DNA from: Tatumella citrea
Lineage (GTDB): Bacteria > Pseudomonadota > Gammaproteobacteria > Enterobacterales > Enterobacteriaceae
DNA: 64,000 bases
NCBI RefSeq assembly: GCF_002163585.1
Contig: NZ_CP015579.1
Location: 2,480,001-2,544,000 of the forward strand
Direction: 5' to 3'
Every line of letters begins with the position of its first letter. Position 1 is the stretch's first letter. A program made the translations under genes and the position numbers. Positions 15,588-31,080 of this stretch are shown here, one piece after another. Below the pieces are notes generated by a model. It saw only the letters and a program-made list of their open reading frames with translations, had not been told where the DNA came from and made no database searches.

Positions 15588-15971
15588 TCAGGAAGTGACT
15601 TTACCACGTGGATCATCAATATGCTGTTTGGCCACATCATAACGAATCCCTTCACGGTGCAGGATACGGACGTTTTTCACCACGCTGGCCAGTGCTTTTA
15701 AAAAAGTTTCAGAATTCTCATGGCGTTCATAGGCTTCAATATCCGCCCAGCCCTCAGACAGATGAAAAGCATCCGGATTGACCAGGTCCTGGGAAAAAGC
15801 ATAAAAAACACAGCCAGGTAGCTGCTGTGCTGCCTGCATCTCCGGTTTTACCGCATCGATAAAGGTTTGGCGGTCTTCAGGATGCACACGGTAGTACGCG
15901 CTGACGATGATTTCGGTCGGCTGAGTTTTATCATGATCACCCGCGGTACTAATTTTAGGGTTAAGGCTCAT
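15588..15971 (-). CDS. Antibiotic-biosynthesis-monooxygenase (ABM) domain protein
   Basis: The 127-residue protein is a single ferredoxin-like ABM domain, the fold of YgiN-type quinol monooxygenases and heme-degrading enzymes. It shows IIVSAYYRVHPEDRQTFIDAV, CVFYAFSQD and LSEGWADIEAYERH (the conserved W and H). ATG 15971 is chosen over the longer frame because GGAG precedes it. It lies 52 nt after the SnoaL-like gene on the same strand, and both are downstream of a LysR gene. It could detoxify quinone-like compounds; that is inference. Confidence 0.82.
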   Translation of the reverse strand: MSLNPKISTAGDHDKTQPTEIIVSAYYRVHPEDRQTFIDAVKPEMQAAQQLPGCVFYAFSQDLVNPDAFHLSEGWADIEAYERHENSETFLKALASVVKNVRILHREGIRYDVAKQHIDDPRGKVTS

Positions 15972-16023
15972 TATTTTCTCCGTAAGGCTAATGTTGAATT
16001 CAGCTACAGGCCACAGGATAAAA

Positions 16024-16428
16024 TCAGGAAGGATCTTTGCCGTGAAAAGCACGCCAGGCAGCAAGGGTATCCAGTGATTCGCGCAGTAAAACTATCTTTC
16101 CATCCTCCGCCACCAGCCGCCCGGCATAGGTCTGTTTGTATATCCGTCCGGTTCCTTCGACAGGAGCTTCCACGCTGTATTCGGCGAAAGCCTGGGTCGG
16201 TGTTTCGATAAAAAACCGGATATTACGGAAACGAAACTCAGGAACTTTACTGAGCAGCCCGCCAATAAAGCTTTCGATAGCTGCTGGTCCCTGTACCCTG
16301 TGTTGCTGGCCCAGAGTCTGCAGATACGGTAATTCCAGAGCACCCTCAGCGGCAAAAAGTGCAGCAGCGGCTTTTGGGTCCCGGATACTGTCCAGATAGT
16401 TTTGAAGTAACTGTACGGCTGTTTTCAT
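16024..16428 (-). CDS. NTF2/SnoaL-like protein
   Basis: This 134-residue protein starts MKTAVQLLQNYLDSIRDPKAAAAL and has the helix-then-sheet pattern of the NTF2-like fold, with FAAEGALELPYL and GPAAIESFIGGLLSK typical of SnoaL-like isomerase or hydratase relatives. The longer frame to 16527 adds a non-homologous hydrophobic stretch, so ATG 16428 is preferred. It sits between the ABM gene and a LysR gene on the same strand. A related NTF2-like gene with a signal peptide lies at 18189. No active-site assignment is possible by eye. Confidence 0.78.
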   Translation of the reverse strand: MKTAVQLLQNYLDSIRDPKAAAALFAAEGALELPYLQTLGQQHRVQGPAAIESFIGGLLSKVPEFRFRNIRFFIETPTQAFAEYSVEAPVEGTGRIYKQTYAGRLVAEDGKIVLLRESLDTLAAWRAFHGKDPS

Positions 16429-16575
16429 GAGTGATGCCCTTCTGTTTTGAAGCCGGCTGTCTGCGGCATAAGACAACAATAAAGGAATCCTGAAAACCAC
16501 AAAATAGAAAATAACGAAAGTCATCATTGCAAAAATGAAATGATTACAGTGTCTGATAAACGATACTGTCTAGGC

Positions 16576-17484
16576 TTAACCCCAGTCAGGATCGCTCAGA
16601 TGCTTAACAAAGAAATCTGATAACACCTTTACTTTTAGCGGGCGGGTGCGGGCTGTCGGGGTGACAAAATAGAGCCCTCCCTGAGTCATTGACCATTCAT
16701 CCAGCAGATGAATAAGTTGCCCTGTTTTCAGATACTCAGCGGCCATAAAACCCGGCAATTCGGCAATCCCTAACCCCGCCAGTAACGGTGGCAGTAATGC
16801 ATCCGAATTGGTTACCCGCAGCGGGCCATTGGGAACTACATCTTCCTGGCCACCCGAGGGATGAGTAAAACGCCACACCTGGCTACGGGCACGATAAGCA
16901 TAGCTAAAGCATGTCCTGGCAGATAATTCCCGCGGGTGCTGAGGTATACCCTCTCGGGCAAGATAGTCCGGCGATGCCAGCAGGTACTGCGACACATTAC
17001 AGATCTTACGGGCTACCAGCGAAGAATCCGGTAACGCCGCGATGCGTAATGCCGCGTCGAAACCGTCCGCGATTAAATCAACGGAGGCATCGGACAGATG
17101 AAGATCGATGCTCAGTTCGGGAAACTGAGCAATAAGTTCCGGTAGCAATGGCGCAATCCAGCGCAGACCAAATGACATCGGCACCGCTAAACGGATCTGG
17201 CCGCGCGGTTGAACCGAAAGCTCATGTGCTTCACTTTCCACCTCTTCCGCCTGGCGGTAGATGTCAGATGCTTTTGCCGCCATGCTTTGACCAAACTCTG
17301 TCAGTGATAACTGACGCGAGGTACGGTTAAACAACCGACCGCCTAACCGCTCCTCAAGTCTTGCTACAGCACGTGATACGGTGGGAACCGACACTCCCAT
17401 CACTCTGGCCGCCGCAGCGAAAGATCCTTCTTCTGCGACTTTGGCAAACATCGCGAGCCCTTCAAAATCCGGGAATTTATTCAT
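16576..17484 (-). CDS. LysR family transcriptional regulator
   Basis: A typical LysR protein of 302 residues. The HTH has FAKVAEEGSFAAAARVMGVS, PTVSRAVARLEERLG and LFNRTSRQLSLTEFG, and a CrgA/PP2 type effector domain follows, including the conserved TCFSY and GLGIAELPGF. It is divergent from the VOC-protein gene at 17622. The gap carries three TTTCAAA/TTTGAAA half sites, one of which abuts the LysR start codon, so autorepression is plausible. Confidence 0.9.
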   Translation of the reverse strand: MNKFPDFEGLAMFAKVAEEGSFAAAARVMGVSVPTVSRAVARLEERLGGRLFNRTSRQLSLTEFGQSMAAKASDIYRQAEEVESEAHELSVQPRGQIRLAVPMSFGLRWIAPLLPELIAQFPELSIDLHLSDASVDLIADGFDAALRIAALPDSSLVARKICNVSQYLLASPDYLAREGIPQHPRELSARTCFSYAYRARSQVWRFTHPSGGQEDVVPNGPLRVTNSDALLPPLLAGLGIAELPGFMAAEYLKTGQLIHLLDEWSMTQGGLYFVTPTARTRPLKVKVLSDFFVKHLSDPDWG

Positions 17485-17527
17485 TTCAAATCTGCAATGA
17501 TGAATTTCAAATCATTCTATTTTGAAA
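17484..17527. promoter_or_regulatory. Three phased half-sites between LysR and VOC genes
   Basis: TTTCAAA occurs at 17484-17490 and 17505-17511, exactly 21 bp apart (two helical turns), and TTTGAAA, its complement, at 17521-17527. The last two form a dyad with a 9-nt spacer. This is a typical arrangement for recognition and activation sites of a LysR regulator. Confidence 0.5.
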
Positions 17528-17621
17528 ATCGCTCTGCGTCGATATGCTGTTTACATCAAACGACACCGGCGGTCAGCAGAAAAGATTCGTCAGGTGAATG
17601 ACTTATCAGAAGGAAATTAAA

Positions 17622-18176
17622 ATGAGCCACCAGAAAATCACTTCACTGCTGTTCGCCTCTTCACTGCTACTGGGTGCAGGCAGTTTTTCAGTCCCGGCGT
17701 TCAGTGCCACACAAACTCCAATAGTGACGGTTGCCGGTTTAGACCATGTGGGAATTAACGTTCCTGACCTGAATCAGGCGGTCAGCTTTTTCCGGACCAC
17801 TTTTGGGGCCACGCTGGAATCCGATATGGCTCCGGGGACTATCCCGGCAGCCTGGAAAACGGCCTACCACTGGCATCAGTCCAGCGAACTTAAGCATTTT
17901 GCCATGGTGCGTTTACCGAACGGTACCGGTATAGAACTGTTCCAGTACAGCGGAAAGCAGATTGATCATCATCGCCCACATCAGGATGACGATGCCGAAA
18001 CCCATATTGCCCTGAAAACCAGCGATGTCATGGCTGGATATCAGGCGGTGAAAAAAGCCGGACTAAAAACATTAAGCTCACCGGTGACTAATGCTGACGG
18101 CACTCAGTGGTTCTATTTTCTGACTCCCTGGGGTTCTCAGATTGAACTGACTGGCAAAGTAAAAACAGCGGGTTAA
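17622..18176 (+). CDS. Exported VOC/glyoxalase-fold protein
   Basis: The 184-residue protein begins with a Sec-type signal peptide (MSHQKITSLLFASSLLLG, cleavage expected near FSA). One vicinal-oxygen-chelate domain follows: LDHVGINVPDLNQAVSFF at its start, and metal-ligand candidates His in LDHVG, His in HFAMV and Glu in QIELTG. ATG 17622 is preferred to 17598 because AAGGA precedes it and the signal peptide then starts cleanly. A periplasmic VOC protein is less common than a cytoplasmic one. It is 12 nt upstream of another exported small protein. Confidence 0.82.
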   Translation: MSHQKITSLLFASSLLLGAGSFSVPAFSATQTPIVTVAGLDHVGINVPDLNQAVSFFRTTFGATLESDMAPGTIPAAWKTAYHWHQSSELKHFAMVRLPNGTGIELFQYSGKQIDHHRPHQDDDAETHIALKTSDVMAGYQAVKKAGLKTLSSPVTNADGTQWFYFLTPWGSQIELTGKVKTAG

Positions 18177-20357: not shown

Positions 20358-21047
20358 TCAGGATTTACCGCGTACTTTCCGCGACAGAGAGCGGAGATTA
20401 TTTCTTATTTTGATCAGGTAATAATAAAAAGTTTTTCGGGCGGCCTTCACCTGATACTTGCTCTCCAGAATCAGCGTATCATTCGCTTTACACATCGCCA
20501 GGCTGCCTTTAAAGGATAAATCGATCACTTTCAGTTGCCCTTCGCTGCTGACAATAAAATTGCCCGCATGGATATCATTGGAAGATAACCCGCCTTTATG
20601 AAGTGCCGAGATGCAATCACTGACATTGCTAATGTTGGAGTGATTAATTTCACCAATCGACGATCCATCAATAAACTCAAAAACAGCATAGCTATCAACG
20701 CATTGTCTGAATTTTCTCTTTTCGGCGATAAAGTAGACATTGGGGGTGTAATTCAGCAGCCAGTCACGGCCTTTATTTAAATAACGCATTAAACGCAGGT
20801 TCGCTGAACTATAAATAAAGTTCTGCAACCGCTTCTCCAGTCGCCCGTCTATTTCTCTGTCGCGTTTTACAATGAAATACTTCGAAATATACCTGACCAG
20901 ATAAACATCCCGCAGCGCATTTCCGCTGGGGAATTTTTTAACCACAAACCGTTCAAAATTATCGCTAAAGATAAGGTCATGGAAAATCGCACCCTCTTCA
21001 GTGAAGTAAATATCATAGCCAAAAGATTTTGTTTTATTTATCAACAA
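20358..21047 (-). CDS. Lipopolysaccharide core heptose(II) kinase-like protein (RfaY/WaaY family)
   Basis: This 229-residue protein has a reduced protein-kinase-like fold. The catalytic loop SSNDIHAGNF puts Asp158, His160 and Asn163 in place, and the Mg-binding segment KVIDLSFKG carries Asp176. The N-terminus has FVVKKFP, the expected ATP-lysine strand. This pattern matches RfaY/WaaY kinases, which phosphorylate a heptose of the LPS inner core in the cytoplasm. The gene is A/T-rich and lies alone, away from any waa cluster in this window, suggesting transfer or relocation. Its function as an LPS kinase is inferred from family only. Confidence 0.75.
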   Translation of the reverse strand: MLINKTKSFGYDIYFTEEGAIFHDLIFSDNFERFVVKKFPSGNALRDVYLVRYISKYFIVKRDREIDGRLEKRLQNFIYSSANLRLMRYLNKGRDWLLNYTPNVYFIAEKRKFRQCVDSYAVFEFIDGSSIGEINHSNISNVSDCISALHKGGLSSNDIHAGNFIVSSEGQLKVIDLSFKGSLAMCKANDTLILESKYQVKAARKTFYYYLIKIRNNLRSLSRKVRGKS

Positions 21048-21508: not shown

Positions 21509-21856
21509 ATGGCATTGATCCCAAAAAACTACGCACGGCTGGAAAGCGGTTATCGCGAGAAAGCATTAAAAATATACCCGTGGATATGTGGCCGGTGCTC
21601 GCGGGAGTTTGTCTATTCAAACCTGCGCGAACTGACAGTTCACCATATCGATCATGATCACACCAATAACCCGGAAGACGGCAGTAACTGGGAATTATTG
21701 TGTCTGTACTGTCATGACCATGAACATTCAAAGTATACTGAAGCCGATCAGTACGGTACCCGTGTTGTTGCCGGTGACGATGCACAGAAAGATGTCGGTG
21801 CAGCCACCTACAATCCGTTTGCCGATTTGCAGGCGATGCTGAATAAGAAGAAGTGA
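21509..21856 (+). CDS. yajD: HNH nuclease family protein YajD
   Basis: The 115-residue protein is nearly the E. coli YajD sequence: IPKNYARLESGYREKALKIY, CGRCSREFVYSNLRELTVHH and NWELLCLYCHDHEHSKYTEA. It has the HNH/McrA-type metal-binding arrangement: a CxxC pair, the HHIDHDH core with Asn in HTNN, and a second CxxC-type site (LCLYCHDH). It is a stand-alone small nuclease-like protein conserved in enterobacteria, with no established role. Here it is the only core gene inside an otherwise A/T-rich accessory stretch, and a good terminator follows it. Confidence 0.95.
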   Translation: MALIPKNYARLESGYREKALKIYPWICGRCSREFVYSNLRELTVHHIDHDHTNNPEDGSNWELLCLYCHDHEHSKYTEADQYGTRVVAGDDAQKDVGAATYNPFADLQAMLNKKK

Positions 21857-21868
21857 GTTTGTGTGAGT

Positions 21869-21899
21869 AACAGGGCTGTGAGAATGCCCTGTTTCATTT
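21869..21899 (+). terminator. Terminator of yajD
   Basis: AACAGGGC (21869-21876) and GCCCTGTT (21886-21893) form a perfect 8-bp stem with a 9-nt loop and are followed by TCATTTC, 13 nt after the yajD stop. Confidence 0.65.
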
Positions 21900-21978
21900 C
21901 GTGCCAACGAATTTAGATAGTTATAACACCATCCTGAACCTACAAAAATTGTAAGATCTTAACTGTTCAAGGAAGAAG

Positions 21979-22566
21979 ATGAAAAGCTCACCAAAACAAC
22001 CCGCTCATATTGTAGACAGAGCGAAACTCCCTGAAAATTTTCCTACCCACAGACACGATAGCCATTTTTGTGAGCAGTTAGGCAGGACTATCGCAACATT
22101 CGGCTTTCTGGAAGAAACTCTCGCTAAAGCAATATTTTCTTTTACTGCAACCACTCCCTACTCTCCTGATGATATTGAGGAGGAATACAGTAAATGGTTT
22201 ATCAAACTCCAAAAAGCTCTTTCCGACCAACTTTACGATCTTACTGAATCATATAAAAAGTCAGTAAAATCAAATCCTAATGTTAAAATTGATTATATCG
22301 ATGAATTATGTGAAGACATTAATCAACTACGACAATTTAGAAACGTACTATGTCATGCTTTCTGGCAGGCCCCCGACAAACATGGTCGCTCAATTCCCTT
22401 ATTCGTTGACAAAAAACAGAACGTCTTTAACACAGAAATTGACACCAATTATCTGATACAAATACAAAAATCAACTGTATCACTGGCTTGTGATGTAATA
22501 GACTCTGTAACAACAATGGGCTGGCAATGGCCCGGAAGTTTAAGCCCTGGAAAAGTTATATTTTAA
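21979..22566 (+). CDS. Uncharacterised protein with a HEPN-like RX4H motif
   Basis: I do not recognise a named family. The 195-residue product is soluble and predicted mostly alpha-helical. Its centre holds LRQFRNVLCHAFW, in which Arg121 and His126 give the RX4H spacing of HEPN RNases, preceded by a helix rich in Asp and Glu. HEPN proteins cleave RNA in toxin-antitoxin, CRISPR-associated and other defence systems, and the motif sits at the usual helix start here. The coding sequence is clearly more A/T-rich than the core genes. It has a good AAGGAAG Shine-Dalgarno. It is followed, convergently, by another unrecognised A/T-rich gene. The HEPN assignment is inference from the motif and helical character. 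Confidence 0.75.
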   Translation: MKSSPKQPAHIVDRAKLPENFPTHRHDSHFCEQLGRTIATFGFLEETLAKAIFSFTATTPYSPDDIEEEYSKWFIKLQKALSDQLYDLTESYKKSVKSNPNVKIDYIDELCEDINQLRQFRNVLCHAFWQAPDKHGRSIPLFVDKKQNVFNTEIDTNYLIQIQKSTVSLACDVIDSVTTMGWQWPGSLSPGKVIF

Positions 22567-22659
22567 CCGGCATAACGATGGACGTGGTTAAAAAATATCA
22601 AATCATATATGATTATCTTTAAATCAGTATATTAATATAAATCAAGACAACAAGTGACT

Positions 22660-23940
22660 TCAGCTATCTAAGATAATATTATTCGGACGAGCAACATTTG
22701 AAACAATCTCTAGTTCTTCCTCAAGTTCAGTGACAATTGAATTTAAGTTGTATTCTACTGAATTACGTACATTCCCTCTTAGCTCAACGTTTTCGATAGT
22801 GCTCAGTTTCATGTAGAACTCATATAACTCAGGTAAATTCGCGGTTATTTTCTCCATGTCTTTAGAGTGGTAGAAAAGAATAGGTGGTCCTTCATTAGAG
22901 TTAAAAGCCACTGCTTTTAAAGAGGTAAGTTCCATAACCTCGATAAACCCCTTATCACAGGATAGTAAACCTGGGAAAAAATACCTTTCTCCATTTCCCA
23001 TGTTAAAAGTTATTGCTTGCTCCAGGTACCTATAATGAGCCAGATCCCAAGTCATTCCCCGAAGGGCTTGCCAAATGTTTTTCGAATTTTTGTGTACCTT
23101 ACTAAAAAATTTAAAACCTGTGCCTTTTTCAAAAAATTCAGCAGCAACAATTAACTCTCGAGTAGCAAAGAAGGAAGCTTTCTCATGAGCAAACCTTAAC
23201 AACTCCAGCATTTTATTTTTAAACGATCGAGAAGGTGAACTTATTTGGATAATGCTTATTTTAAGAATATATATGTATATGCAGTTATATCTTTCAAGCA
23301 TAGCTTTTCTAAACTCTTCATTTTTATTTTTATCCAGCATATTTCTAAAATGCCTGTCCGTATTCATGAGAAGTTCAGCCTTTGATTTCTTGCTACTTAA
23401 ACAACCTGTCTGATGAAATTTACTTGCATCAAATTCTTTTATAAACTCATAGCCTAGTAACTTGTCAAATATCTTATGGTGGTTGTCATCACTATCCATA
23501 CTTTTTAAATTTTCAATTTCATATAAAACAGAATCAACCTGAGTGTCTTCATTAGAGATAAAATTGAATATTTCCTCTATGTCGTCATTAATCCCTGCTT
23601 TCTTGCCATTGACATAAGGATGAAGGTAGCTCAACGCCTGTGTGTCTAATGATATAGAATAATCAATTTTGAAGGTCGAACATCCCTTTTCACTAAACAT
23701 CTCCGCTATAGTTTCTGGGTCCATTACTATTACATGCTCATCATTGAATAATGACCTAATGGATGCCCCATTTTTGAATTTTTTATTAGATGAAAACCCA
23801 GGATACGGTCCTTTTGGGGAAGAAAAAACAAATTTATACTCAGGAATCAGGTGGTGAAACATATTGTACATGTCTAAAGAAGCGGATAGTTCCTCCTGAT
23901 TACCAATATCCATTACCAATTGTTTTTTTATATATTCCAT
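22660..23940 (-). CDS. Uncharacterised protein with a PIN-like acidic-residue pattern
   Basis: The family is not recognised. The protein has 426 residues, is A/T-rich in coding sequence and has a strong AGGAGGG Shine-Dalgarno. It has no signal peptide or membrane segment. SLDTQALSYL (97-106) resembles the first strand of PIN-domain RNases (hydrophobic-Asp-Thr). An acidic pair follows at 141/143 (YEIEN), then TWDLAHYRYLE (Asp299) and LLSCDKGF (Asp329), which resemble the late motifs where PIN domains keep their other metal-binding acids. The spacing is longer than in VapC toxins, suggesting an inserted helical region. It is convergent with the HEPN-like gene, 93 bp apart. The function is unknown and PIN-type RNase activity is inference. 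Confidence 0.75.
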   Translation of the reverse strand: MEYIKKQLVMDIGNQEELSASLDMYNMFHHLIPEYKFVFSSPKGPYPGFSSNKKFKNGASIRSLFNDEHVIVMDPETIAEMFSEKGCSTFKIDYSISLDTQALSYLHPYVNGKKAGINDDIEEIFNFISNEDTQVDSVLYEIENLKSMDSDDNHHKIFDKLLGYEFIKEFDASKFHQTGCLSSKKSKAELLMNTDRHFRNMLDKNKNEEFRKAMLERYNCIYIYILKISIIQISSPSRSFKNKMLELLRFAHEKASFFATRELIVAAEFFEKGTGFKFFSKVHKNSKNIWQALRGMTWDLAHYRYLEQAITFNMGNGERYFFPGLLSCDKGFIEVMELTSLKAVAFNSNEGPPILFYHSKDMEKITANLPELYEFYMKLSTIENVELRGNVRNSVEYNLNSIVTELEEELEIVSNVARPNNIILDS

Positions 23941-24672
23941 ATATTACCCTCCTAGATGGTATTTCCAGCCCATTTCAGGCAAGCTAAAGTCACTACTATA
24001 ATTCGAACAATCATCAAATTTTTCATTCTGTTAAGGCTAAACGCTCTGACTTAACACGTTAAAAAACAGTAACTCTTAATATACTAACCATCAAAACTCT
24101 TAATATCAACTTCCAGAAAACCGTGCTCACTCACGCTGATAAGATACGAAAACTCGATGCCTTTAATTTCTGAATTTTTCTTTTGCATAGTATGTACATT
24201 ATCAATACCAAATCTAAAAAAAGTTCGATATCCATCCACAATGCACTGTATAACGAATTAAAAGACATAGAGATCCACTTTATGATTTTTTCTTTCAATG
24301 ATTTAAAAAATTTTTCGCCTAGTCAGCATTGAGCTAATCGAAGATCTGATGTGCAATGCGCGACCCCATAGTTTTCCAGTTACGTTATAATACTGATGGG
24401 AAATTCCTTGTTTTCAGCGTACCTCAGATATCCTAAGGATAGGGTGATGAAGTATTGTGCTCAAGCGCCCGACAATATTTAGTATGCAATTTTCAGCAAT
24501 ATGCTGACGATAAGGGATAAAAGGAATTGTACCAAGTAGTGTACAAATCCTTCTAGATTTATAATTAGTCTGTTGATTGTAAATTAATCTTACGTATTTA
24601 AATTCCAAACAATTATACCATATGACTTTTCGCGCAGGATTTTCCCGCGCGAATTGATAATTGACACAACTT
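23941..24672. other. A/T-rich intergenic region
   Basis: This 730-bp stretch is the most A/T-rich non-coding part of the window. Apart from the short frame at 24084-24239 nothing coding was found. A TATAAT at 24386-24391 is present without a matching -35. No integrase, attachment-site duplication or tRNA was recognised. Confidence 0.4.
24084..24239 (-). pseudogene. Possible remnant of an A/T-rich gene (short C-terminal-like frame)
   Basis: A minus-strand frame of about 52 codons, closed upstream by a TAA, encodes a mixed hydrophobic/charged sequence. It includes FFRFGIDNVHTM, GIEFSYLISVSEHG and FLEVDIKSFDG before the stop. It reads like the end of a globular protein rather than random A/T-rich DNA. 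No proper start with a Shine-Dalgarno is visible; the first possible start is GTG 24239. It may be what is left of a third gene in this island. The assignment is weak. Confidence 0.3.
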
Positions 24673-25464
24673 TTAATCATAATATTCCGGAGCATGGCGG
24701 AATGATGGCCAGGCATCAGGGTCGTGGCCGGTGACTACTTTGGCCCCGGTGCGGTCTACTACACTGTGCATCTTTTGCACCGAGCGTACCGCTTCTACCG
24801 CCGACGACATAAAGCCAGGCAGCGCTTTTTCATCCCAGTGATCCATGGTGTAGGCAGCATCAATGGTCAGTAGCAGCGGGCCGTTGTTTGGCAATGTCAC
24901 CAGTACCGACTGGTGGCCGGGTGAGTGGCCGGGGGTAAAGACCGTTTTCAGGGTGCCGTCTCCGTAAATATCATAAAAATCATTGTTCTCTCCGTTGAGA
25001 AATTCCCATTTCAGGCCGGGACGATCGAAATCGTTGCGGATATATCCGCCTGCGGCAAACCAGTCCGGAGTAAAGGCATATTCATATTCGCGGCGCTGAA
25101 CAATATGAGTGGCATTCGGGAACCGCCCTACGGCGCCGGTATGATCAAGATGCAGATGTGACTGCAGAACGTAGCGAATATCTTCCGGTTGTATGCCCAT
25201 TTTTTTCAGTTGCGCCACGCACCCCTGGTCCTCATGCATTACCGGCCAGTAAACATCGGTAATGCCTCCCCAGTAACCTTTAGGATCGGTGGCTGTTTCC
25301 ACAGCATTTCCGCCATCAATCAGCGTATGACCTTGCGGATGAGTGAGCAGAAAAAATGGCACCGGGATTTCATAATCAGCGCCATCGCCCTGATTCATTT
25401 TGATGTTGTGTACTTTGCATTTCAGCGAGCCGGTCTGAAACATATATAAGCGAATATCAGTCAT
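24673..25464 (-). CDS. blcC: Lactonase: gamma-butyrolactone / N-acyl-homoserine-lactone hydrolase (AttM/BlcC family)
   Basis: The 263-residue metallo-beta-lactamase-fold enzyme resembles Agrobacterium AttM (BlcC) from end to end. Matching elements are LKCKVHNIKMNQG, DYEIPVPFFLLTHP, IDGGNA, the dinuclear zinc motif SHLHLDHTG (His103, His105, Asp107, His108), ATHIVQRREYEYAFTPDW, FTPGHSPGHQS, LLLTIDAAYTMDHW and VVTGHDPDAW. BlcC opens gamma-butyrolactone to gamma-hydroxybutyrate and also degrades acyl-homoserine lactones. It is the last gene of the operon, 48 nt after the alcohol dehydrogenase, as in Agrobacterium. The enzyme acts in the cytoplasm. Confidence 0.93.
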   Translation of the reverse strand: MTDIRLYMFQTGSLKCKVHNIKMNQGDGADYEIPVPFFLLTHPQGHTLIDGGNAVETATDPKGYWGGITDVYWPVMHEDQGCVAQLKKMGIQPEDIRYVLQSHLHLDHTGAVGRFPNATHIVQRREYEYAFTPDWFAAGGYIRNDFDRPGLKWEFLNGENNDFYDIYGDGTLKTVFTPGHSPGHQSVLVTLPNNGPLLLTIDAAYTMDHWDEKALPGFMSSAVEAVRSVQKMHSVVDRTGAKVVTGHDPDAWPSFRHAPEYYD

Positions 25465-25512
25465 GGTGAGATGTCCTTTAGCTTTCAGTACGTAGGGTAC
25501 AGTGGCTGCGGC

Positions 25513-26679
25513 TTAAAAAGCCTGCCGGTACAGGTCCAGCGCGTCGGCTTCAGTAACCTCTACTGGGTTATTTATCAGCAAACGTGTCTGTTTCATCGCG
25601 TCAGAGGCCAGTAACGGCAGGGTATCTTCTTTCACTCCGACATCACGTAAACGTCTTGGCGCACCGCTTTCATCCATAATGCGGATCATTTCTTCGATAA
25701 AAGCATCACAACGCGCGTTAACATCTCCTCCCGCAGCAACATTCAGCACATCCGCCAGTTCTGCGTATAAAGGTGCTGCCTGCCTGGCGTTGTAACGCAG
25801 TACCGCACCCAGCATCAGCGCGTTTGAGAGACCATGAGGGATGTGATAATGCCCGCCCAGCGGGTAAGCCAGCGCATGCACAGCGGCTACCGGTGAATTC
25901 GAAAATGCCTGTCCAGCCAGAGTCGCGCCCAGCAGCACCGCTTCACGGGCTTTGCGGTCGCTGCCATTGCGGCAGGCAATCACCAGTTGCCCGGAAATCA
26001 GACGTAATGCTTCACGCGCCAGCGCATCTGACAATGGATTCTTTTTATGCTGACTGGTGTAGGCTTCAATGGCGTGCACCATCGCATCGATTCCGGTCGC
26101 AGCGGTATGGGTTGCCGGCAGCCCCACAGTGAGCTGAGCATCCAGCAGCACAAAATCGCAGTACAGCTGGCGTGAAACAACCCCCATTTTGGTAGTTTCG
26201 CCAGTAGTGAGGATCGAAATATTAGTGACTTCTGACCCTGTTCCTGCGGTGGTCGGGATTTGTACCAGAGGCAGACGTTGTCCCCGGACATTATCTATTC
26301 CGTATAATCCACTGAGCTCCTGCGAAGAATTGGCCAGAATTGCCGTAAGTTTTGCCACATCCAGCGATGAACCACCGCCTAAGCCAACCACCAGATTGAT
26401 TTGGTGATCTCTTGCCAGTTGTGCTGACTCCAGTACCAGTGCTTCCGGAGGATCGGCCACCACCCGATCAAACACTGTTACCTCAAACCCGTGGCTGCGC
26501 AGGCTTTGCTCTACCGGCTCCAGTAGCCCCGCTTTCACCAACCCGCCATCGGTAACAATCAGTACCTGGCGTTCAGTAAAACGTCCGGCAAGAATCTCGC
26601 CCAGACGACGAGCGCCTTCCCATTCCACGAGAATGGAAGGCACTGTAGTAAATTCAAAAGGCTTATTAAACTCTGACAT
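25513..26679 (-). CDS. blcB: Iron-containing alcohol dehydrogenase (gamma-hydroxybutyrate dehydrogenase, BlcB/AttL-like)
   Basis: The 388-residue group III alcohol dehydrogenase carries the NAD-binding GLGGGSSLDVAK, the PTTAGTGSEVT segment and the iron-binding region AVHALAYPLGGHYHIPHG with its conserved histidines. Its place between an SSADH gene and an AttM-type lactonase gene makes oxidation of gamma-hydroxybutyrate to succinate semialdehyde the likely reaction, by analogy with blcB. A good Shine-Dalgarno (AAGGAA) precedes the ATG. Spacing to the SSADH gene is 61 nt. On its own the sequence would only support a generic Fe-ADH. Confidence 0.9.
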   Translation of the reverse strand: MSEFNKPFEFTTVPSILVEWEGARRLGEILAGRFTERQVLIVTDGGLVKAGLLEPVEQSLRSHGFEVTVFDRVVADPPEALVLESAQLARDHQINLVVGLGGGSSLDVAKLTAILANSSQELSGLYGIDNVRGQRLPLVQIPTTAGTGSEVTNISILTTGETTKMGVVSRQLYCDFVLLDAQLTVGLPATHTAATGIDAMVHAIEAYTSQHKKNPLSDALAREALRLISGQLVIACRNGSDRKAREAVLLGATLAGQAFSNSPVAAVHALAYPLGGHYHIPHGLSNALMLGAVLRYNARQAAPLYAELADVLNVAAGGDVNARCDAFIEEMIRIMDESGAPRRLRDVGVKEDTLPLLASDAMKQTRLLINNPVEVTEADALDLYRQAF

Positions 26680-26740
26680 AAAGGGTTCCTTACTGACCGG
26701 CTATTGCCGCGATAATGTCTCAGGGAGTAAAAGTGACTAC

Positions 26741-28198
26741 TTAGCCTGTGGTAGTGCAGAGATACTTAATCTCCAGATACTCTTCGATACCGTATTTTGA
26801 ACCTTCTCGGCCGATGCCTGATTGCTTGATCCCGCCAAACGGCGCGACCTCGTTAGAAATCAGTCCGGTATTGTGTCCGACCATGCCATATTCCAGGGCC
26901 TCTGAGACCCGCCACATCCGTCGGCTACTTTCGGTATAAAAATAAGCCGCCAGACCGAATTCGGTATCGTTCGCCATTTCAATCGCCTGCTGTTCGGTAT
27001 CAAAACGGAACAGAGGAGCCACCGGCCCGAAGGTCTCTTCCCGGGCAATCAGCATCCCACGCTCAGCATTTACAATTATCGCCGGGGTGATAAACAGCCC
27101 CTGCGGGGTCAGGCGTTCACCGCCGATAATGACCTTACCGCCCTTTTGCTGCGCATCCTGCAGATGCTGTTGTACTTTGGCTACTGCGTCCTCATCAATT
27201 AACGGGCCAATCTGCACTCCCTCTGCCGTGCCATCACCGGTTTTAAGTGCAGCGACTTTCTCTGCCAGTCGTTGTGCAAAGCGGTCATAAATCCCTGACT
27301 GCACCAGAAAGCGATTAGTGCACACGCAGGTCTGCCCTGCGTTGCGGTATTTTGACTGGATTGCACCATCCACAGCCGCCTCGAGATCTGCATCATCGAA
27401 GACAATAAACGGGGCATTTCCCCCCAGCTCCAGAGACAAACGTTTAATTGTTGGTGCGCACTGGGCCATTAATAACCGGCCTACTGCAGTTGAGCCGGTG
27501 AATGATAATTTTCTGACCACATCGCTGCGGGTCAGTACCTCGCCAATCACTTTGGCATCACCGGTAATTACCTGCAGTACCCCTGCCGGAATTCCCGCAC
27601 GCACCGCCAGTTCTCCCAGAGCCAGTGCTGTTAAAGGAGTCTGTTCTGCGGGTTTGACGATCATCACACAACCTGCAGCCAGTGCAGGCGCGGCTTTACG
27701 GGTGATCATAGCGGCAGGAAAATTCCACGGTGTGATAGCGGCACAGACGCCCACCGGCTGTTTGATCACCAGCAACCGTTTATCTGGTTGGGTGGGTGGA
27801 ATGACATCACCATAAATGCGCTTACCTTCTTCAGCGAACCAGTCGATAAATGATGCCGCGTAGCTCACTTCGCCGCGTGATTCAGCCAGCGGCTTGCCCT
27901 GTTCAGCGGTCATAATCGCTGCCAGATCTTCACGATTTTCAACAATCAGTTCGAACCAGCGGCGCAGCAAGGCACAACGCTGACTGGCAGTTTGTTGTCG
28001 CCACTGAACAAAGGCTTGCTGAGCAGAAACCACCGCCAGTTCAGCTTCTGCCTGTGCAAGACGGGGAACATTGGCTATTATCCCGAGGGTTGCCGGGTTG
28101 TTTACCGGGAGGGTGGCGCCATCAGCCGCCGAACGCCATTCACCTGCCAGCAGGCAGGTTTCCCTGAACAGGGAAGGATCACGTAACTTAAGCATCAT
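26741..28198 (-). CDS. blcA: Succinate-semialdehyde dehydrogenase (BlcA/AttK, GabD family)
   Basis: This NAD(P)-dependent aldehyde dehydrogenase has about 486 residues. It carries WNFPAAMITRK, FTGSTAVGR, the general base Glu257 in LELGGNAPFIVFDDAD and the nucleophile Cys291 in NAGQTCVC, a combination typical of GabD-type enzymes. ATG 28198 (or 28195) with GGAGAAA just upstream is preferred to the longer frame to 28246, whose extension would run toward the operator region. It is the first gene of the operon and converts succinate semialdehyde to succinate, feeding the TCA cycle. Confidence 0.92.
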   Translation of the reverse strand: MMLKLRDPSLFRETCLLAGEWRSAADGATLPVNNPATLGIIANVPRLAQAEAELAVVSAQQAFVQWRQQTASQRCALLRRWFELIVENREDLAAIMTAEQGKPLAESRGEVSYAASFIDWFAEEGKRIYGDVIPPTQPDKRLLVIKQPVGVCAAITPWNFPAAMITRKAAPALAAGCVMIVKPAEQTPLTALALGELAVRAGIPAGVLQVITGDAKVIGEVLTRSDVVRKLSFTGSTAVGRLLMAQCAPTIKRLSLELGGNAPFIVFDDADLEAAVDGAIQSKYRNAGQTCVCTNRFLVQSGIYDRFAQRLAEKVAALKTGDGTAEGVQIGPLIDEDAVAKVQQHLQDAQQKGGKVIIGGERLTPQGLFITPAIIVNAERGMLIAREETFGPVAPLFRFDTEQQAIEMANDTEFGLAAYFYTESSRRMWRVSEALEYGMVGHNTGLISNEVAPFGGIKQSGIGREGSKYGIEEYLEIKYLCTTTG

Positions 28199-28247
28199 TT
28201 TCTCCGTTTTTACTGACCAGCCTGACCGGGCAGTTTTAGTGGACAAA

Positions 28248-28284
28248 GTTCAACCTATTGAACTAAATTCATTAGAATGAATTT
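28248..28284. promoter_or_regulatory. Two adjacent dyads, candidate BlcR-type operator
   Basis: GTTCAA-N4-TTGAAC lies at 28248-28263 and AAATTCATT-N2-AATGAATTT at 28265-28284. Both are perfect inverted repeats, one base apart, in the gap between the divergent blcA-like and IclR genes. Agrobacterium BlcR, an IclR protein, is known to bind paired inverted repeats in the blc promoter, so this is the natural binding site to propose. Confidence 0.65.
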
Positions 28285-28333
28285 TGCGTAATTATAAACA
28301 AAACGTCAAATTACTGTTAAAGAAGTGGGATCG

Positions 28334-29125
28334 ATGCCTAAAAATTCATCAGAAGAGAGCCAGGGAACGACAGTACCGGCATTACGCCGGTCAGTGCAGA
28401 TTCTTGATTTGGTCAGTCAGTCCGCCACACCACTAAGTTTTACCGGCATTGTCAGCCAGTTAGGGTTACCCAAAAGTTCGGTACACGGACTCTGTGCTGC
28501 ACTGGTGGATGAAGGGCTGTTGATACGCACTAATGACGGTACTTACCGGGTCGGTTCCCGAATTATGAGCTGGGCCAATGCTTTCCTCGATCAGACTGAT
28601 TTGATCGCTGAATTTCAGCAGCTGTTGCAGGGGAGAAATGAGTTACGCGGATTTACTGTAACCCTTACGGTACTGGATGATTGTCAGGTGGTCTATATTG
28701 CCTGTTCTAACAGCAAAGCCGCTCTGGGCTTTACTTTCAGTATCGGCATGCGGCTGCCAGCTCCTTTTACCGCCACCGGTAAAGCTATTCTCAGTACCCT
28801 GAGTGATGAGGAGATTGGCCGACGTTTTGCTGATCGCTGGCCGGAATCACTCACCAGCCACAGTGTGAAATCTGCCAGTGCCTTAACCACGGAGCTCGCC
28901 CGGGTACGACAATGTGGCTATTCGATAGACAATGGGCAGATCCGCGAGGGTATGTTGTGTATCGGCGCTCCGGTAAGAGATTTTTCCGGTCAGGCGGTGG
29001 CCGGTCTGGCCGTCAGCCTGCTACAACAGGAAGCCGGCCCACAGACCATTGAAACCGTCGGTCAGAAGTTGCTTGAGATTGCTGCCTCACTCTCAGCCAG
29101 ACTCGGTCGGGAAGTTAACCGGTAA
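28334..29125 (+). CDS. blcR: IclR family regulator of the butyrolactone operon (BlcR/AttJ-like)
   Basis: The protein (about 263 residues) has an N-terminal winged HTH (LRRSVQILDLV, LSFTGIVSQLGLPKSSVHG) and a C-terminal IclR effector domain (MRLPAPFTATGKAILS, REGMLCIGAPVRDFSG, AGLAVSL). BlcR represses blcABC and is released by gamma-butyrolactone, GHB or succinate semialdehyde. Divergent orientation from the operon and the two dyads in between support the same wiring. ATG 28334 and an upstream GTG 28325 are both possible starts. The gene's 3' end overlaps the convergent NUDIX gene by 11 nt. Confidence 0.85.
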   Translation: MPKNSSEESQGTTVPALRRSVQILDLVSQSATPLSFTGIVSQLGLPKSSVHGLCAALVDEGLLIRTNDGTYRVGSRIMSWANAFLDQTDLIAEFQQLLQGRNELRGFTVTLTVLDDCQVVYIACSNSKAALGFTFSIGMRLPAPFTATGKAILSTLSDEEIGRRFADRWPESLTSHSVKSASALTTELARVRQCGYSIDNGQIREGMLCIGAPVRDFSGQAVAGLAVSLLQQEAGPQTIETVGQKLLEIAASLSARLGREVNR

Positions 29126-29531
29126 TTTCTCCCCATACACGCGGAATAATAATATTTTGAGTTAGCGGAGCCAGCAGTATCGTGTTGGCTTCCTCGCGTG
29201 AGAGCCAGCGAACTTCTTCGATTTCTGCTGCTGCCGTCACTTCACTCAGCGGTTGTTCGGTGCGAAACAACGTGGCCTGTACGATATAGCCCGGTTCATT
29301 AGCGGCATTGTCGCTAAACTGTCCCATCGGAATCAGCTCATCCGCCTCCAGCGACAGGTTAAGCTCTTCCTGAAGTTCCCTGATGACAGCGGCCTGAGCC
29401 GACTCCTGTGGCTCGATTTTACCGCCGGGCTGCATAAAATAACGGGTGTTTTTTTTCCTGACCAGCAGCATGCGTTGTTGTTGATCGGTGATAACCGCGG
29501 CGGCAATACGGATAACGTTGGTTTCAGACAT
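29115..29531 (-). CDS. NUDIX hydrolase
   Basis: The 138-residue protein contains a Nudix box: GGKIEPQESAQAAVIREL followed by QEEL, matching Gx5Ex7REUxEEx with a conservative Gln in place of the hydrophobic residue's neighbour. RYFMQPGG precedes the box. Such enzymes cut nucleoside diphosphates linked to another moiety, often oxidised nucleotides. ATG 29531 with GGAG upstream is preferred to the longer frame. It overlaps the IclR gene tail to tail by 11 nt. The substrate is not known. Confidence 0.9.
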   Translation of the reverse strand: MSETNVIRIAAAVITDQQQRMLLVRKKNTRYFMQPGGKIEPQESAQAAVIRELQEELNLSLEADELIPMGQFSDNAANEPGYIVQATLFRTEQPLSEVTAAAEIEEVRWLSREEANTILLAPLTQNIIIPRVWGEITG

Positions 29532-29679: not shown

Positions 29680-31080
29680 TCAGATATCACAGATAACATA
29701 ACGATCTTTACCCTGCGCCTTTGCCTGATAAAGCATTTTGTCAGCAACAGAGATCATCTCTTCAAAATTCCCCTGATAAACAGGGTTAAATACCGCACCA
29801 CAACTTACCGTCACCGGTGGGATTTCCGTTTCCTGACTGATAATTTTTGTTGCTCTTACCGTTTCCAGCAACTGGTCACAAAATGCGATAAATTCATGGC
29901 GGTGCTGACTGCTTAACGTCACAAAAAATTCCTCCCCTCCCCAACGGGATAATATCACTCCGGGAGTGCGCAACTCTTTTAAGGTCGCAGAAATGGCCTT
30001 CAGTACATCATCTCCGCAATCGTGCCCGTAATTGTCATTAATACTTTTGAAATTATCGATATCCAGCAAAATAAATCCTTGTTGCCGGCCCGAAGCTATC
30101 ATGTTTTTGTTGGAAAATACGTAACGCCGGTTATACAGTCTGGTTAAAAAATCTGTTTGAGACTGCCGGGTCATCCTGTTTACCGCTCGTTGCTTCCAGT
30201 GCATCAACTCACACAGAAACACAGAAATAACTGCCAGAGAAATATCCTCCAGACGATGAGAGAATATCTCCCGGTATATACTTCCGCCATAGCTAACAGC
30301 ATCGGTTTTCAGATAGTAATAGCCTCGCATCAACGAACACATTAATAAAAACATGCCGTTATAAAATACTGCCGCATAGAAACTAAGATAACGGGCTGAA
30401 ATAAACAGCGCCAGGGCGGCAATTGATGAAACCCCCAGCCAGTAGTTAAAAAACATCAGCACCTGCACCAGTACCATCAGACCAAACAGCAATATAAAAC
30501 GTCGTCTGTTAATACCTGTAACCCGTAAAGCATTTCGAAAAAAACAAGGGTAGACAATCATCACCATCATCAGGCCGGTGGCCAGTTGCTCACTGGTCCA
30601 TTCGATCAGACCAAATAGTGACAGATGCTGTTGGATATAAGCAGCAAATACCGCATAACATAATGACTGTAGCAGGCTGGCACAGACCACCGGAATCAGC
30701 ATTAACATGGTTTTTCGGTAAGGAAAAATAAGCCAGTGTTTTTTCACTAATATGGCGACCACCAGCGGGATAAAGAGTAACTGCAGAGAGTTAATCCATA
30801 CCAGTGTCAGTAACTGAGAAAGAGAATTATAGTCATCTGCAATTAGTGATGCCAGAATTCCGGCCAGCAGATACAAACAATAAAGAAAAATAGCCGTCAC
30901 CCGGCGATATTTAGACTTTTTCCTCGAAATATACAATATCAGCAACGCCGAAACTGTATTTACCGGCCAGAAAAATACAATATTATTGGTCTGAGCAAGG
31001 CTTAATGGAATAATAAAAAGTATAAAGGTGACTAAAAAGAATATGATAGACGACTTCATCAAGCCTGAATTAAACGGCAT
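29680..31080 (-). CDS. Membrane-bound diguanylate cyclase (GGDEF domain)
   Basis: Residues 1-300 form a hydrophobic multi-helix sensor domain of MASE1-like character, with at least eight membrane segments. Residues 305-466 form a GGDEF domain with DFLTRLYNRRY, DIDNFKSINDNYGHDCGD and the active-site motif GGEEF at 381-385. It therefore probably makes cyclic di-GMP in response to a signal sensed in the membrane. No RxxD inhibitory site is evident five residues before the GGEEF motif. A 19-base C run lies 118 bp upstream of the start codon, within or near its promoter, which might affect expression. Confidence 0.9.
   Translation of the reverse strand: MPFNSGLMKSSIIFFLVTFILFIIPLSLAQTNNIVFFWPVNTVSALLILYISRKKSKYRRVTAIFLYCLYLLAGILASLIADDYNSLSQLLTLVWINSLQLLFIPLVVAILVKKHWLIFPYRKTMLMLIPVVCASLLQSLCYAVFAAYIQQHLSLFGLIEWTSEQLATGLMMVMIVYPCFFRNALRVTGINRRRFILLFGLMVLVQVLMFFNYWLGVSSIAALALFISARYLSFYAAVFYNGMFLLMCSLMRGYYYLKTDAVSYGGSIYREIFSHRLEDISLAVISVFLCELMHWKQRAVNRMTRQSQTDFLTRLYNRRYVFSNKNMIASGRQQGFILLDIDNFKSINDNYGHDCGDDVLKAISATLKELRTPGVILSRWGGEEFFVTLSSQHRHEFIAFCDQLLETVRATKIISQETEIPPVTVSCGAVFNPVYQGNFEEMISVADKMLYQAKAQGKDRYVICDI

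Follow-up and report, generated by a model that had tools for sequence, protein, structure and literature searches.

In Agrobacterium fabrum C58, the pAt plasmid carries the operon blcABC (attKLM) and, divergently, the repressor gene blcR (attJ). The blc pathway of this strain, its induction through BlcR and growth on gamma-butyrolactone (GBL) have been described (PMC5924552, PMC3907764), and BlcR is reported to be bound as a tetramer upstream of blcABC and to be released by GBL or gamma-hydroxybutyrate (GHB) (PMC6402643). For Agrobacterium, it is debated whether the lactonase BlcC (AttM) serves carbon use or the quenching of quorum signals (PMC5924552). The AttM family is already published in Enterobacterales, with homologues in Pluralibacter gergoviae FB2 (PMC4263834) and Photorhabdus (PMC4235431). 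Here, we analyzed a stretch of 64,000 nucleotides from Tatumella citrea (contig NZ_CP015579.1, positions 2,480,001 to 2,544,000), referred to below as the window, in which four genes and an operator-like site very probably form a complete blc operon with a divergent blcR gene. This operon belongs to a known family, of which it is a well-formed example, and is nothing new in kind; in titles and abstracts of the literature on Tatumella combined with quorum or lactonase, we found no treatment of blc.

Gene content and likeness to the C58 operon

According to the open reading frame (ORF) listing, the unit at 24673-29125 consists of genes for a lactonase, an iron alcohol dehydrogenase (Fe-ADH) and a succinic semialdehyde dehydrogenase (SSADH), all on the minus strand, and a divergent IclR-type regulator gene on the plus strand (Table 1). 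This is the arrangement that had been described in a sequence-only reading of the window, and it is borne out by the ORF listing, Pfam and NCBIfam. The two lactonase motifs named in that reading, SHLHLDHTG and VVTGHDPDAW, both occur in the protein, starting at residues 102 and 243, respectively, together with TPGHSPGH and TIDAAY, and the lactonase motifs align with AiiA. The Fe-ADH contains GIDAMVHA and AVHALAYPLGGHY, and the SSADH contains GQTC, LELGG and PWNFP; in all three enzyme families, these motifs serve in metal binding and catalysis. In the NCBIfam comparison, the lactonase scored above the cut-off of the AttM equivalog NF045700 (487.7 bits, cut-off 390) and the SSADH above that of TIGR01780 (708.3 bits, cut-off 646.35), and the GabD equivalog NF008415 stayed below its cut-off for the SSADH (758.4 versus 828). 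The closest solved relative of the regulator is 3mq0, described as 'Transcriptional repressor of the blcABC operon' (E 1.5e-72; next relative 5.3e-22).

Protein alignment to the pAt locus of C58 (L127), a comparison that had been proposed with the sequence-only reading, gave identities of 75, 72, 68 and 52% to BlcC, BlcB, BlcA and BlcR, respectively, over 383 residues for the Fe-ADH, 484 for the SSADH and 246 for the regulator. The two loci have the four orthologues, their order (R-A-B-C) and orientation, the divergent repressor and the palindrome AGTTCA-N6-TGAACT in the blcR-blcA gap in common. They differ in that protein identity is 52-75%, the spacing from operator to ATG is longer in the window, and the window host is without LuxI or AHL-binding LuxR matches (AHL, acyl-homoserine lactone). 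Moreover, the C58 copy lies on pAt, whereas the operon of the window, at 2.48-2.54 Mb on contig 1 of 2 in a genome of 4.49 Mb, is apparently chromosomal. Orthology, gene order and the operator palindrome together therefore identify the locus as a blc operon with a predicted regulatory site, and orthology, gene trees and operator argue against the possibility that four unrelated genes are merely adjacent. The trees (quick IQ-TREE, midpoint root) comprise blc-like relatives and a few paralogues, without wide outgroups, and they do not distribute the four genes over different non-Blc families; the Fe-ADH, for instance, groups with the blc alcohol dehydrogenases. The locus is an ordinary, complete blc operon, and its host is unusual but not unique.

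Start sites and the intergenic region

Residue 18 of the listed SSADH ORF, which starts at a TTG, aligns with residue 1 of C58 BlcA, and a GGAG is located 6 bases 5' of the ATG at 28195, which is very probably the true start. In the regulator ORF, an ATG follows in frame at 28334, nine bases past the listed GTG at 28325, and is perhaps the start. With these two ATG codons, the blcR-blcA gap measures 138 bp.

The sequence AGTTCAACCTATTGAACT at 28247-28264 (plus strand) is the sole exact AGTTCA-N6-TGAACT in the 64 kb. We compared 39 blcR-blcA gaps, from 35 genome loci, C58, two Pantoea plasmids and the window, and found the core GTTCA-N6-TGAAC to be exact in 34 and to have one mismatch in its ten fixed bases in the other 5. 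When 20000 pieces of 140 bp were drawn at random from these sequences, the exact core occurred in 184, a rate that is inflated by pieces holding the operators themselves. A stretch of 37 bp resembles the C58 gap at 27 positions, compared to 22 at most in 300 dinucleotide shuffles; throughout the relatives, the core palindrome alone is kept within this region. The gap is thus predicted to contain a BlcR-type operator. A promoter scan returned 6 sites in the region, compared to 4.0 (sd 1.9) in shuffled sequences. The TTGACG of one of the two candidate promoters in Table 1 is present in 7 of 8 aligned enterobacterial relatives, and the eighth has TTGGCG. As judged from these positions, a repressor on the repeats could block the start of transcription.

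Table 1. Coordinates of the blc genes and of the sequence features between blcR and blcA (positions in the window).
Feature	Position	Strand	Basis
blcC/attM-type lactonase, metallo-beta-lactamase family, 263 aa	24673..25464	-	NF045700, C58 AttM, motifs
blcB-type iron alcohol dehydrogenase, 388 aa, predicted GHB dehydrogenase	25513..26679	-	Pfam Fe-ADH, C58 gene in matching place
blcA-type SSADH	26741..28195 (listed TTG ORF to 28246)	-	TIGR01780, C58 BlcA
blcR-type IclR-family repressor gene, divergent	28325..29125	+	3mq0, C58 BlcR, Pfam IclR_C and HTH_IclR
Palindrome AGTTCA-N6-TGAACT, predicted BlcR operator core	28247..28264	.	sequence only
37-bp stretch resembling the C58 gap, 27/37 positions	28242..28278	-	0/300 shuffles reach 27
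Second inverted repeat, adjoining the core palindrome and overlapping the 37-bp stretch	arms 28265-28273 and 28276-28284		
Candidate promoter TTAACA-18-TATAAT	28320-28291	-	consensus match alone
Candidate promoter TTGACG-17-CAAAAT	28309-28281	-	consensus match alone

Several observations weigh against the assignment of the operon and of its lineage. The regulator is the least conserved of the four proteins relative to C58 (52%), and it remained under all NCBIfam cut-offs (best BhcR, 141.8 versus 350). Likewise, the Fe-ADH remained under every cut-off of the 17 NCBIfam models listed (best ErcA, 292.3 versus 550), including the 4-hydroxybutyrate dehydrogenase model NF058672 (225.7 versus 500). 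In the 37-bp comparison, several relatives did no better than some shuffles (the value of L008 was reached by 59 of 300), and the distance from the operator core through the blcA start is 57 bases in the window (55 without the two bases past the ATG that this figure includes), compared to 16-43 in the other 38 gaps. The alcohol dehydrogenase (ADH) tree does not recover the whole enterobacterial set described below and shows only a five-row Tatumella-Hafnia-Ewingella-Rouxiella set (support 83). Finally, many inner branches of the trees have support below 80, and the roots are midpoint roots only.

Proposed pathway

The genes, their orthology and order, and the operator-like sequence were established in this analysis, and the reactions, inducers and repression that follow are drawn from published relatives. 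Without inducer, the IclR-type repressor would sit on the inverted repeats at the start of the operon and block transcription, and GBL, GHB or succinic semialdehyde (SSA) would release it. The lactonase would then open GBL to GHB, the iron alcohol dehydrogenase would oxidize GHB to SSA, and the aldehyde dehydrogenase would convert SSA into succinate for the tricarboxylic acid cycle. By analogy with these relatives, the operon most likely feeds carbon from GBL or GHB into succinate.

Alternatively, the operon could serve mainly to dispose of GHB and SSA derived from plant gamma-aminobutyrate (GABA), with GBL as a minor substrate. The window genome has a GabT match above cut-off (3573870-3575084), and GABA could therefore yield inducer; in C58, blc is described as induced by GABA (PMC5924552). 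In addition, the genome has 12 other aldehyde dehydrogenase matches, all of them at most 37% identical to the blcA product. On the other hand, an aldehyde dehydrogenase gene lies near gabT (3576798-3578126; 33% identity to the blcA product), so GABA may have its own route, and the operon includes a lactonase. On balance, we consider this alternative unlikely, although not negligible.

Quorum sensing

The sequence-only reading had presented the operon as a quorum-quenching module. A first search for LuxI gave no match in the window genome, and the fourteen control genomes were silent as well. The search was repeated with 30 kin genomes and then detected LuxI in 4 of them, with G007 and G009 among the positives, which indicates that it works; the window genome again had none. 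An AHL-binding LuxR domain had no match in the window genome either, whereas G007, G009 and E. coli were positive. Judged from these searches, the host appears to lack both the synthesis and the perception of AHLs via the LuxI and AHL-binding LuxR families, and it is therefore unlikely that the operon controls a signal of the host itself. A quorum-quenching role is thus not indicated by the gene content of the host. LuxI was found in 13 of 30 genomes (the window genome and 29 reached through the loci), one of these matches (G479) being partial and barely above the cut-off; with this mixed result, LuxI was rejected as a marker of blc hosts.

The lactonase likely cleaves AHLs as a side activity, because of its homology to tested AttM proteins, and an action on the AHL signals of neighbors is possible. 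Recombinant AttM of A. caulinodans opens AHLs (PMC12727195), as does attM of C58 when expressed in Pectobacterium and Dickeya (PMC3376598), and a quenching role of BlcC in C58 has been argued (PMC5924552). Could the operon, then, be kept chiefly to destroy the AHLs of neighbors, with lactone catabolism being secondary? The Photorhabdus loci are in line with this, since in 8 of 8 the lactonase has no blcA, blcB or blcR relative in the fetched flanks. However, the lactonase of the window is encoded in one unit with two dehydrogenases and a repressor, the C58 operon is described as responding to GBL, GHB and SSA and not to AHLs (PMC5924552), and the window genome has neither LuxI nor an AHL-binding LuxR match. 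Of the 10 genomes in the enterobacterial blc set, which include two metagenome-assembled genomes (MAGs), 3 have LuxI, and this also argues against a primary quenching function. Khan and Farrand (2009) reportedly hold, going by their title, that BlcC does not quench the system regulating Ti transfer, and we counted this on the same side. Taken together, we regard a mainly quenching operon as improbable, and carbon use remains our preferred reading.

The Photorhabdus lactonases (L010, L011, L013, L014, L015, L018, L019 and L053) are 81-82% identical to that of the window, and LuxI had no match in the five genomes searched of those holding these eight loci.

The locus shows that the regulated blc unit, complete with the operator-like site, also occurs in a second bacterial order, and its host has no detected AHL signaling genes. 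This helps to distinguish between carbon use and quorum quenching as roles of AttM/BlcC; in other respects, the locus enlarges a known family.

Distribution and gene trees

Within the genus, 2 of 6 genomes have an AttM-like match (at least 98% identity) and the other 4 have none at all. Among 118 relatives, 3 have a match of at least 84% (G000, which is the window genome, G004 and G069), and the AttM cut-off was passed in 2 of 394 genomes of the order, the window genome included. Scanning genome contigs with the lactonase as query yielded 58 loci, of which 35 have all four genes in order; relatives were gathered via the lactonase, and the remaining loci are short of at least one gene, some of them perhaps only due to the end of the fetched stretch.

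In the trees, the window pairs with Tatumella morbirosei LMG 23360 (L002), next come Hafnia, Ewingella and Rouxiella, and then a Citrobacter, Cedecea and Klebsiella group. The proteins of T. morbirosei are 88-98% identical to those of the window (lactonase 98%), and the flanking genes are shared on both sides. The loci of Hafnia psychrotolerans, Ewingella americana, Rouxiella aceris, Citrobacter, Cedecea, Klebsiella and an Enterobacteriaceae MAG (L003-L009) have the four genes in order and form one clade with the window in the lactonase, SSADH and regulator trees (support 98 with 9 rows, 98 with 10 rows and 100 with 10 rows, respectively), but they have none of the flanking ORF families of the window; among L002-L009, T. 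morbirosei alone has these. The Pantoea and Erwinia loci (L030, L032, L059, L128 and L129, the last two plasmid-borne) have the same four genes, order and palindrome, yet they constitute a separate lineage, a second group that is placed among alphaproteobacterial copies, together with Pluralibacter where the gene is present (support 99 for the lactonase, 96 for the SSADH, 100 for the regulator and 100 for the ADH). Pluralibacter L023 has the lactonase and ADH only. At least two blc lineages are therefore present in the Enterobacterales, and Tatumella, a member of the Erwiniaceae, has a copy that differs from the lineage of the sampled Pantoea and Erwinia loci.

Because the operon is scattered within the genus (2 of 6 genomes) and the gene trees cut across families, horizontal movement is likely in the history of the operon, and the unit appears to belong to an enterobacterial blc lineage that moved between families. 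The earlier proposal of horizontal acquisition agrees with this, but its label 'Agrobacterium-type' does not hold as to origin, as the closest copies in other genera are those of Hafnia, Ewingella and Rouxiella, and the lactonase, SSADH and regulator copies lie apart from the Agrobacterium/Rhizobium groups in the midpoint-rooted trees. Nesting within Rhizobiaceae copies was not seen in these quick trees, of which the ADH tree does not join the whole enterobacterial set.

Three very long branches that look like distant paralogues from extraction were kept, L051 and L038 in the SSADH tree and L036 in the ADH tree. Two other gene arrangements were encountered: a Cardiobacteriaceae MAG (L036 8001-10138) has a rearranged version with lactonase, distant Fe-ADH (40%) and SSADH (58%) in this order, and Halomonas and alphaproteobacteria (L017, L038, L039) have a shorter form with regulator, ADH and lactonase without an SSADH in between. 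No empty site could be demonstrated in the four operon-less genomes of the genus, in which the NUDIX, GGDEF and FAH matches are distant (28-39% identity) and a NUDIX match is absent from G002. The FAH gene is in any case a poor site marker, since in G004, which does have an AttM-like match, it is also only 51% identical.

The A/T-rich stretch beside the operon

The sequence-only reading had further taken an adjacent A/T-rich island as a sign of acquisition. This stretch of approximately 2.8 kb (21893-24672; 35% G+C over 21860-24600) lies between the lactonase and an HNH gene, where 113 bp are found in T. morbirosei. DNA alignment to T. morbirosei, with a query that ended at 29200, covers 24673-29198 at 84% identity, halts at the lactonase stop codon and restarts at 21892; the operon thus occupies one and the same site in both genomes. 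Because T. morbirosei has the operon at that site without the stretch, the latter is a separate event, either an insertion in the window or a loss in T. morbirosei, and it is uninformative on the origin of the operon. It is therefore ruled out as the vehicle of the operon, and the idea that it signals acquisition had to be dropped. The same applies to a foreign base composition as proof of transfer, as the G+C content of the four blc genes is ordinary (51-54% versus 50% for the window).

These data also bear on the possibility that the operon came straight from an Agrobacterium or Rhizobium plasmid, together with the A/T-rich island. The order and regulator are as in C58, and rhizobial plasmids often carry AttM-like genes (98 Rhizobium and 89 Agrobacterium records among the 341 plasmid records with any match). 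Yet such a transfer is highly improbable, considering that the midpoint-rooted lactonase, SSADH and regulator trees assign the operon to an enterobacterial clade separate from the rhizobial groups, that T. morbirosei has the operon in place at 84% DNA identity without the stretch, and that the G+C content is ordinary. Movement of an enterobacterial blc lineage between families is the reading that we retain.

The stretch itself is possibly a small defense or toxin-type island. A 195-aa protein encoded in it weakly matches a Csx1/Csm6 (CARF and HEPN) model (E 5.7e-05) and carries RNVLCH, an RxxxxH motif, which we take to be the HEPN motif. A second protein, of 426 aa, gave no match in Pfam and PADLOC searches.

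A shared neighbor block

Downstream of blc, at 15588-18176, the window has VOC, LysR, SnoaL-like and ABM-domain genes, which are also found in T. morbirosei (L002 10986-13576). In matching order and orientation, this block recurs 1.5-4 kb past the lactonase in Pantoea coffeiphila (L032 10319-12843), and at that distance also in Erwinia sp. JUb26 (L030 10501-12492), there without a VOC match; among all loci compared, only these three besides the window have it near blc. Identity to the window in L030 and L032 is 85-87% for LysR, 87-89% for the ABM part, 74-76% for the SnoaL-like part and 66% for VOC, and that of the blc proteins is 48-77%. The blc genes beside the block belong to the enterobacterial lineage in Tatumella and to the rhizobium-side lineage in P. 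coffeiphila and Erwinia sp. JUb26. Two histories would account for this: replacement of one blc lineage by the other next to a long-standing neighbor, or separate arrival of the two lineages at the block. In-place replacement of a whole regulated blc operon by a distant version, in a host that is blind to AHLs, is a tentative idea with the odds against it. If true, it would mean that blc spreads as a self-contained carbon module and that its quorum-quenching fame concerns a by-product. Within the block, conservation of VOC (66%) and of the SnoaL-like part (74-76%) does not exceed that of the lactonase (77%), which counts against our reading. In Pantoea sp. At-9b, VOC and LysR are on one plasmid (L182) and blc is on another (L128).

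The SnoaL-like and ABM domains are encoded by two ORFs in different frames in the window and T. morbirosei, and by one ORF in L030 and L032. Between the lactonase and the VOC block lie a WaaY-like gene (20358-21047) and the small HNH gene (21509-21856), both shared with T. morbirosei. On the other side of the operon, a GGDEF gene next to a NUDIX gene is a single ORF at 29680-31080, and in G004 it is in two pieces, one with a stop (C4:692191-693587).

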